In this document: piece by piece, positions 40,359 to 56,116 of the stretch | Numbering within the stretch: position 1 is the stretch's first letter | Layout of the letters: each line of letters opens with the position of its first letter | Assembly: GCA_024239075.1 (NCBI GenBank) | Contig: JANBVI010000004.1 | Span: forward strand, 1 to 64,000 | Length of the DNA stretch: 64,000 nt | From: Fischerella sp. CENA71 | Lineage (GTDB): Bacteria > Cyanobacteriota > Cyanobacteriia > Cyanobacteriales > Nostocaceae | Direction of reading: 5' to 3' | Notes under the pieces: model-generated | The model's database searches: none | Told to the model about the DNA's origin: nothing | What the model saw: the letters and a program-made list of their open reading frames with translations, nothing else | Translations under genes and position numbers: made by a program

Positions 40359-40881
40359 ATCATCATCCAAATTTAATTTAGTTAGTGATATTTTGCATTT
40401 GATGAGGCTGATAACAGTAACCCCTGCTCTAACTTTAATGCTTTTAGCAAGTCATAAACTTTTGTTTATTATGACTTAGCAAGGCAAAAATAGCAGGCAT
40501 TAGCTAAGTTAACTATTGACTTTTTAGTTACCTCTGCTAAAAGTTAGATGATTTTTAATTTACTTATGATGAAGTATTTAGCTTTACTTCACTATATAAA
40601 CTCAGGACGCAGTTGATTGAGTACGGTTCCCATGATTTGACACCCATTTATAGTTTTTTATAATTATTTTAAATTTAAGCTTAGGTAAAACTTATACTTC
40701 AATCTACTTACCGTAAATCAGCAGAAGATTGAGTTGACTGCCTGTTTACGTTAGGCTTCGAGGCGGCTAAAAAATATTTGTTCTAGATGTCTAAATCTAC
40801 TCAATATCAAACTGGCTGAATCTTTTGCAACAATGTTTAGGCACTGAATCTATATATACATACTTAACATATAAATAAAAA

Positions 40882-40924
40882 CTATCCGCTCTTACTTTAG
40901 ATCGGGTGATCTAGGTAAGAGCGG
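40882..40924 (-). terminator. Terminator of the candidate small RNA
   Basis: CCGCTCTTAC (40886-40895) pairs with GTAAGAGCGG (40915-40924), extended inside by TAGATC/GATCTA around a four-base loop. On the minus strand it is followed by ATAG and five T residues. Confidence 0.75.
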
Positions 40925-41026
40925 TTTAGTTGGGTCTTCAGGTTGCAACCTAACTGCCGGATGGAACTCCAAATCAGCTTTGCTGCTTGAGGTAAACTAG
41001 TCTCTCAATAAGACTAAAGCTGACTT

Positions 41027-41098
41027 TTAGAGAACAGCTCCGGCACACAGCCGGCTTCCTGCAACCTGATGACCCATGCATTTACTACTATCTGTCAT
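41027..41098 (-). CDS. Candidate 23-codon ORF inside the structured RNA
   Basis: A perfect AAGGAGG (41107-41113) lies 8 nt before ATG 41098, and the frame runs 23 codons to TAA at 41027. The peptide begins MTDSSKCMGHQV, has two cysteines and ends hydrophobic. Codons 8-13 lie in one arm of the main helix (41060-41075), so translation would open that helix, as in leader-peptide attenuators. The strong ribosome binding site is the main evidence; conservation is untested. Confidence 0.45.
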   Translation of the reverse strand: MTDSSKCMGHQVAGSRLCAGAVL

Positions 41099-41213
41099 GG
41101 GCATCACCTCCTTGTTGCCTGAGCGGTCTTACTTTCAAAAAGGCAGAGCTAGTAGCTCTGGGTTGTTTACAACTATATATAAAATATAGCACAAAGTTTA
41201 ATCATTGCTGCGA

Positions 41214-41780
41214 TTAAAGATGTTTTTTGTCACCCAAAAGGAAATCGCGAACTAGGAAAAAGCTGGAAATCGATTTAGCATCTATAGGTTCACCTTGTAG
41301 AATTGCTTTTTCCAATTCTTCTGGAGTTAGTAAAACTGTTTCGATATCCTCGTCTTGTTCCTGTGCTGGTGGTGTTTCGAGTTTTTCTAAATCTTGAGCT
41401 AAATAAGCGTAAATAATTTCATCAGAATAACCTGGAGCCAGAAAAAATTCTCCTAATGTTTGCCACTTATGAGCGCGATAGCCTGTTTCTTCTTCTATTT
41501 CCCGCTTCACTGTATCCAAAGGGTCTTCATTTATTTCTACAGTTCCCGCCGGAAATTCCAACAATCTTCCCCCAACTGCAAAACGGTACTGACGTACGAG
41601 AACGAGTTTACCCTCTGAGGTTATGGGTACAGCTAAAGCACCTCCAGGGTGACGAATGCACTCCCATTCTCCTTCTGATTTGTTAGGCAAACGTAGGCGA
41701 TTGACCTCAAAATTGAACTTGCGTCCTCTGTAAAACAGACATTGTTTTAGTAGCTGGGGTAATTCTCTACCTAATGGCAT
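41214..41780 (-). CDS. NUDIX hydrolase (ADP-ribose pyrophosphatase type)
   Basis: A 188-residue NUDIX hydrolase. The Nudix box G-x5-E-x7-REIEEETG is present (GTVEINEDPLDTVKREIEEE near 79-98), with the upstream strand VLVRQYRFAVGGRLLEFPAG typical of the ADP-ribose pyrophosphatase subfamily; FFLAPGYSDEIIYAYLAQDL near 113 is also characteristic. Products would be AMP and ribose-5-phosphate if the substrate is ADP-ribose; the exact substrate is inferred from the family. ATG 41780 is chosen. The candidate RNA element begins just after its stop codon. Confidence 0.92.
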   Translation of the reverse strand: MPLGRELPQLLKQCLFYRGRKFNFEVNRLRLPNKSEGEWECIRHPGGALAVPITSEGKLVLVRQYRFAVGGRLLEFPAGTVEINEDPLDTVKREIEEETGYRAHKWQTLGEFFLAPGYSDEIIYAYLAQDLEKLETPPAQEQDEDIETVLLTPEELEKAILQGEPIDAKSISSFFLVRDFLLGDKKHL

Positions 41781-55757: not shown

Positions 55758-55784
55758 AAAAAACCCCGATGCGAAACACCGAGG
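55758..55784 (-). terminator. Rho-independent terminator of the cpc operon
   Basis: On the minus strand CCTCGGTG pairs with CATCGGGG around a TTTCG loop and is followed by six or more T residues. It is about 330 bp after the last cpcG stop codon. On the plus strand no U-run follows, so it serves the leftward operon. Confidence 0.8.
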
Positions 55785-56116
55785 TAACGTAACCATGAGG
55801 AATCCAAATGTCGAGAGGAGATAAGAGAATTAATAAAAATTAACTTATGTATATAAATGTAAAGTATTTTGTTACAAATAGTCAACATCATTTGACAAAA
55901 CAATAGTCAACATATTCTATAAGCCTAATTTATAAATGGAGAGATGGCATCTTTCAAGTTAGATGAATGAGGGAGCATCCTAAAATCACTGGGTCTTATT
56001 TCCATCTTAAGCAATGCTTAACTAACAAAAAAATGTAAGTTTGGCACTACATTAACAGGGAAACAAGACCCAGTATCAAATTGATGTGTTTAGTTTAAGC
56101 GATCGCAGTAGTGATT
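55785..56116. other. 3' region of the cpc operon with a long inverted repeat
   Basis: No gene. ACTGGGTCTTATTTCC (55988-56003) pairs with GGAAACAAGACCCAGT (56059-56074) with one mismatch, and the loop holds a smaller TTAAGC/GCTTAA hairpin. A direct repeat ATAGTCAACAT occurs near 55878 and 55903. The region is transcribed as the operon's 3' UTR if the terminator at 55758 is used. Confidence 0.7.

Follow-up and report, generated by a model that had tools for sequence, protein, structure and literature searches.

A widely conserved cyanobacterial RNA whose small open reading frame lies within a covarying rod, with a predicted start-codon switch

Leader-peptide attenuators such as the trp and erm leaders combine a short open reading frame (ORF), mutually exclusive helices and a terminator, and 6S RNA is a long imperfect rod. 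SgrS/SgrT are mentioned as dual-function RNAs (PMC5126843). The closest described system is the set of homologues of ncl0160, a small RNA of Synechocystis sp. PCC 6803 credited to Mitschke et al. 2011, of which PMC4734099 reports 83 in a set of 89 genomes of heterocystous and other cyanobacteria. These homologues encode a conserved peptide of 23–25 amino acids behind a ribosome site, considered likely to be translated; the starts are mostly ATG with GTG in a few, the stops are TAA, TAG and TGA in 47, 34 and 2 cases, and a structure prediction for a Nostoc homologue and a peptide logo are given in supplementary figures (PMC4734099). Within the literature searched, the name ncl0160 was found in this paper only; its passages on ncl0160 give no function for an RNA of this type, nor did the search return one.

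The RNA described here lies on the minus strand (41191–40877) of a 64,000-nucleotide stretch of Fischerella sp. CENA71 DNA, the whole of which we call the window. Sequence reading and folding located all of the parts given in the original prediction, in the minus-strand order −10 box, 5′ hairpin, Shine-Dalgarno sequence, ATG and 23-codon ORF, TAA, apical part, rod 3′ strand and terminator:

41183–41191, minus strand: extended −10 promoter-like box TGCTATATT (sequence reading)
40877–41176, minus strand: inferred transcript of about 300 nt, its ends deduced from the −10 box and the terminator
41144–41160, minus strand: 5′ hairpin CAGAGC..GCTCTG, then CCTTTTTG; terminator-like (terminator scan)
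41103–41113, minus strand: Shine-Dalgarno sequence AAGGAGGTGAT (sequence reading and homologues)
41027–41098, minus strand: 23-codon ORF MTDSSKCMGHQVAGSRLCAGAVL plus TAA (ATG at 41098, TAA at 41029–41027)
41072–41102, minus strand: start-codon hairpin, GCCCAUG (41102–41096) with CAUGGGU (41078–41072) (folding, 53 sequences)
41030–41075, minus strand: rod 5′ strand, inside ORF codons 8–23 (covariation)
40970–41026, minus strand: apical part of the rod, variable (alignment of homologues)
40932–40969, minus strand: rod 3′ strand (covariation; frees the start codon in folding)
40877–40930, minus strand: terminator hairpin with U-run (folding against shuffles)

The central element is a rod of 144 nt whose 5′ strand lies within the ORF. 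Specifically, GGGUC (41075–41071) pairs with GACCC (40936–40932), then UCAGGUUGC with GCAACCUGA, followed by further helices, giving 31 pairs in four helices. We examined these pairs in a sequence-only alignment of 53 of 96 extracted sequences; six repeat loci had been skipped during extraction, L043 and L044 had no end pattern, L048 and L099 were excluded by hand, and the rest were too similar to sequences already kept. In this alignment 96.5% of the cells in the rod are paired, and both sides have changed in 18 of the 31 pairs. The covariation score is 0.280 compared with 0.153 for shuffled alignments, none of 500 shuffles scores as high, and sliding the partners gives at most 0.092; the compensating changes that had been anticipated in the main helix are present. 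Because the homologues are related by descent, counts over these 53 sequences, or over the 136 used below, are not counts of independent trials. The minus strand also folds unusually well over 319 nt (z −6.4; 0 of 100 shuffles as good), and the ORF and rod alone (199 nt) are less extreme (z −3.1; 1 of 200 shuffles). Because the RNA is conserved and its rod covaries, a chance origin is excluded.

The anticipated conservation in related genomes was found at two depths. With a threshold of E 0.001, a 321-nt DNA query matched 96 of 100 genomes, including the genome of origin; in six genomes there were two match rows, both at a single locus. A covariance model built from the 53 sequences matched 120 of the 386 genomes of the phylum, once in each: 39 of these genomes, the window's own among them, belong to the same family, another 59 to the rest of the order and 22 to other orders of the class. 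Seven misses are listed for the same order, which gives 98 of 105 genomes matched if, as it appears, the listing is sorted by kinship; beyond those listed, 246 more genomes of the phylum have no match. Among the matches listed in a pattern scan are Nostoc, Fischerella, Microcoleus, Acaryochloris, Thermosynechococcus and others. One family with genomes of 1.6–3 Mb (f41) gave a single weak match of 24.6 bits. Because the contig ends inside psbD, beside the RNA, in several assemblies, some misses may be assembly gaps. Two genomes of one genus in the window's family (G016 and G297) are about 99% complete and near 4 Mb and have no match, which suggests a real loss. Judged by these sequence comparisons, the RNA is real and widely conserved in cyanobacteria, and because it is kept as a single copy in nearly all genomes sampled from the order, with matches in further orders of the class, it is probably useful.

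The RNA corresponds to no Rfam family, in line with the original prediction. Rfam 15 assigns none at gathering score to the window copy or to 20 homologous loci, and all matches up to E 5 at 40500–41300 fall far below the cut-off. The suggestion of a 6S-like rod did not survive, with no RF00013 match at the locus and a separate 6S gene (115.7 bits) elsewhere in the same genome. ARAGORN finds no tmRNA within the window. The only Rfam match in the window is PsrR1, a photosynthesis regulatory RNA, at 55759–55844 on the minus strand (43.2 bits; cut-off 42).

The predicted ORF through one arm of the helix, with a maximal Shine-Dalgarno sequence 8 nt upstream, is likewise present and kept among homologues. 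We compared 136 of these, the 96 of the first extraction and 40 from a second, retaining one doubtful member (L261, 24.6 bits). The spacing between GGAGG and ATG is 8 nt in the window and in 133 of the 136, with 1–2 nt more in three, and 120 Shine-Dalgarno sites match the complement of the 16S tail over at least 10 nt. Start, frame, stop and a near-fixed ORF length are kept in 135 of 136: the ORF has 23 codons in 117 homologues, 24 in 13, 17 in five and 34 in one, the last being the sole frameshifted ORF (L099). The stop is TAA in 90, TAG in 43 and TGA in three, and GTG replaces the first in-frame ATG in three. In the window, an in-frame ATG at 41104 would extend the ORF to 25 amino acids, and two in-frame starts arranged as ATG-CCC-ATG would account, from the sequence, for both 23 and 25.

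These properties resemble the published description of ncl0160 homologues closely. Both have an ORF of 23–25 amino acids behind a ribosome site with ATG, sometimes GTG, as start; the stops occur here in proportions similar to 47, 34 and 2, although the genome sets differ; and both are spread over heterocystous and other cyanobacteria (PMC4734099). Because the published description fits at every point compared, we are highly confident that the window RNA belongs to the ncl0160 family, in print since 2016, the identification being made by description rather than by sequence comparison. The label ‘undescribed’ in the original prediction thus no longer fits: very probably the RNA has already been published, as a prediction with a putative peptide.

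The description in PMC4734099 of a peptide likely to be translated comes closest to a plain small mRNA, in which the peptide of 23–25 amino acids is functional and the rod merely stabilises or tunes the message. The preservation of start, Shine-Dalgarno sequence, frame and stop in 135 of 136 homologues is in keeping with this, as is a dN/dS that, for the 109 unique 23-codon ORFs, is 0.85 in frame compared with 1.29 and 1.03 in the two alternative frames. However, amino acids are free to vary where the RNA is unpaired: dN/dS is 1.08 for codons 2–7 and 0.89 for codons 13–15, compared with 0.71 and 0.57 for the paired codons 9–12 and 16–23. In addition, the ORF of two homologues (L253 and L264) ends at codon 17, yet the RNA sequence beyond is preserved; and all 109 of the unique 23-codon ORFs use AGT for serine at codon 5, a position that is fixed down to the nucleotides. 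The peptide has no Pfam match at E 0.001. We consider the plain small mRNA unlikely. The pattern suggests that the reading frame is kept and that the amino acids are hardly protected beyond the needs of the RNA. Because start and length are kept and amino acids weakly held, being translated may count more than the peptide itself.

How translation could be connected to the fold is suggested by the start-codon hairpin, which is paired in 98.4% of cells in the 53 sequences; covariation sought in these sequences was not found, there being too little variation to show any. The full hairpin and the rod helix P1a have GGGU in common, and the full hairpin excludes P1a. When the 5′ half is folded alone, the start-codon hairpin forms, although the folding score of this half is only moderate (z −1.9). 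Averaged over the 53 homologues, the start codon is unpaired with a probability of 0.04 in the 5′ half and 0.43 in the whole RNA, and the value for the whole is the higher one in 51 of 53. If the 3′ part is shuffled, the start codon remains closed (mean 0.07; 53 homologues, ten shuffles each); the real 3′ part gives a higher value than the average of its shuffles in 49 of 53 homologues, and a higher value than every one of the ten in 38. The unpaired probability of GGAGG moves from 0.49 to 0.64 and is higher in 36 of 53. The effect is smaller in the window's own copy, where the start codon reaches an unpaired probability of only 0.29 and remains covered by a short CAUG:CAUG stem in the minimum-energy fold that includes the rod. 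A possible third hairpin, CCGGC with GCCGG, is 98.1% paired in the 53 sequences, with no clear covariation signal. By predicted folding, then, the 3′ strand of the rod opens the start codon, which fits a translation-coupled switch and lends support to the interplay of translation and folding proposed at the outset.

Motifs at the inferred ends of the transcript are also conserved. Of 241 unique homologues that could be tested, 199 carry the −10 motif TGNTANNNT upstream (shuffles: mean 32, maximum 38 in 20 rounds). At the 3′ end, the terminator that had been predicted as a hairpin with a T-run is present as a hairpin at 40930–40881 with a U-run at 40881–40877 (−25.4 kcal/mol, z −7.8, 0 of 200 shuffles), and its stem motif ACCGCYC with GRGCGGATRGYTT occurs in 187 of 242 testable unique homologues. 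A simple terminator scan did not list this 3′ terminator, although it listed the 5′ hairpin at 41160–41144, and a strict terminator folding test missed the window's own copy. That test is passed by 218 of 242 homologues in its strict form and by 235 in its relaxed form; because 48 of 80 shuffled stretches also pass the relaxed form, it is unspecific and proves nothing, and we rely for the terminator on its stem motif and on the z-score in the window. By eye, an unrelated hairpin seems to replace the conserved stem in five homologues (L089, L100, L101, L273 and L278). A pairing between a 5′ leader element and the 3′ arm of the terminator, considered by eye, was dropped, the leader element being absent in some homologues. 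On the opposite strand, a perfect TTGACA-16-TATAAT at 40637–40664 (+) is directed at the RNA; because the exact pattern occurs in only 2 of 294 loci, both of the window's own genome, it is probably there by chance.

A further possibility is a cis-acting attenuator, in which translation of the ORF sets read-through into downstream genes. In Pfam terms, the same-strand neighbours are HPPK and a NUDIX protein upstream, and pterin-4a-carbinolamine dehydratase (PCD) and an SLH/OprB porin downstream. Where at least 2500 nt of downstream sequence is available (58 unique loci), the porin follows on the same strand in 42 and PCD in 32; where at least 1500 nt is available upstream (106 loci), psbD lies on that side in 39. 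The order psbD-RNA-PCD-porin is seen even at a weak, deep homologue (L257). The porin and PCD counts, this gene order and the conserved terminator stem favour attenuation of the PCD and OprB-porin genes. Against it, both genes are absent in 14 of the 58 loci, and the next mechanical ORF of 80 amino acids or more, considered at 173 loci, shares the strand of the RNA at 147 and lies on the opposite strand at 26. Twenty of those 26, several of them from one genus, have no PCD or porin match downstream; in the other six PCD or porin still follows, and because of this the opposite-strand ORF may be spurious there. The apparently unrelated terminators of some homologues also count against attenuation, and no antiterminator helix was seen in the RNA. 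The leader-peptide switch in cis of the original prediction is weakened by the 26 loci, and we regard it as very improbable. Because the RNA survives without its psbD and porin neighbours, it looks stand-alone, with neighbours that are inherited.

The same-strand porin in 42 of 58 loci nevertheless hints at a possible tie to the porin gene. Complementarity of 7-mers to the porin leaders showed no excess (loop 3 of 65; shuffled mean 2.25), and for the PCD leaders the loop gave 11 of 93 compared with a mean of 3.2, a difference hard to judge in related sequences. Of 65 porin leaders that follow the RNA in related loci, 56 contain GTGAGGA, a count that includes no chance control. This porin is presumably the orthologue of alr4550 of Nostoc sp. 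PCC 7120. Yfr1 represses alr4550, an OprB-like porin (PMC6974561), and GTGAGGA fits the Yfr1 motif as printed in PMC4734099.

Another alternative is a small RNA that acts in trans, its AGUAGUA loop or a rod strand pairing with targets, while the ORF is incidental or serves only to hold a ribosome. AGTAGTA is almost invariant, third codon positions included, and the RNA persists away from its usual neighbours, both as expected for such an RNA. Against it stand the preserved frame and stop and the very strong Shine-Dalgarno sequence, and no target was found in the porin and PCD leaders, the only ones searched. We think this alternative quite improbable.

The reading that we prefer, and hold at even chances, is that the window RNA is an ncl0160-type copy that is transcribed on its own and couples translation to folding. 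The newly made 5′ half would first shut the start codon in its hairpin, and the rod would then capture GGGUC, opening the start codon. A ribosome could then initiate, read the ORF and unzip the rod, exposing its 3′ strand; the start hairpin could re-close behind the ribosome, and the rod would refold after termination. The active product would be less the peptide than the RNA, through its 3′ strand or the AGUAGUA loop, and would probably act in trans on a putative target. A broader form of this proposal, which we put forward as doubtful, is a translation-gated RNA across cyanobacteria in which each reading ribosome would briefly expose a trans-acting strand, the start hairpin would admit one ribosome at a time, and the RNA would report translation capacity.

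The analysis adds three things to the published picture: a rod backed by covariation, a predicted role of its 3′ strand in opening the start codon, and a sign that selection acts on translation rather than on the peptide. The covariation and the start-codon switch are not mentioned in the ncl0160 passages of PMC4734099. With them, a ‘possible small peptide’ becomes a testable claim, namely that selection acts on translation of the ORF and on what this translation does to the fold.

The RNA resembles 6S RNA (RF00013) in its long imperfect rod and differs in carrying an ORF. With the trp and erm attenuators it has in common a short ORF, mutually exclusive helices and a terminator; in contrast to them, it has no obligate downstream gene, an attenuator being expected always to have its regulated gene downstream on the same strand and an opposite-strand ORF coming next here in 26 of 173 loci, and its terminator lies outside the two competing helices. 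On the question of a dual-function RNA, the observations are a kept ORF frame, a weakly held peptide and a search for target pairing that covered the porin and PCD leaders. The likeness to SgrS/SgrT, as these are mentioned in PMC5126843, is a small RNA with a small ORF and, here, suspected action in trans; the difference is that here the ORF itself is one strand of the main helix.
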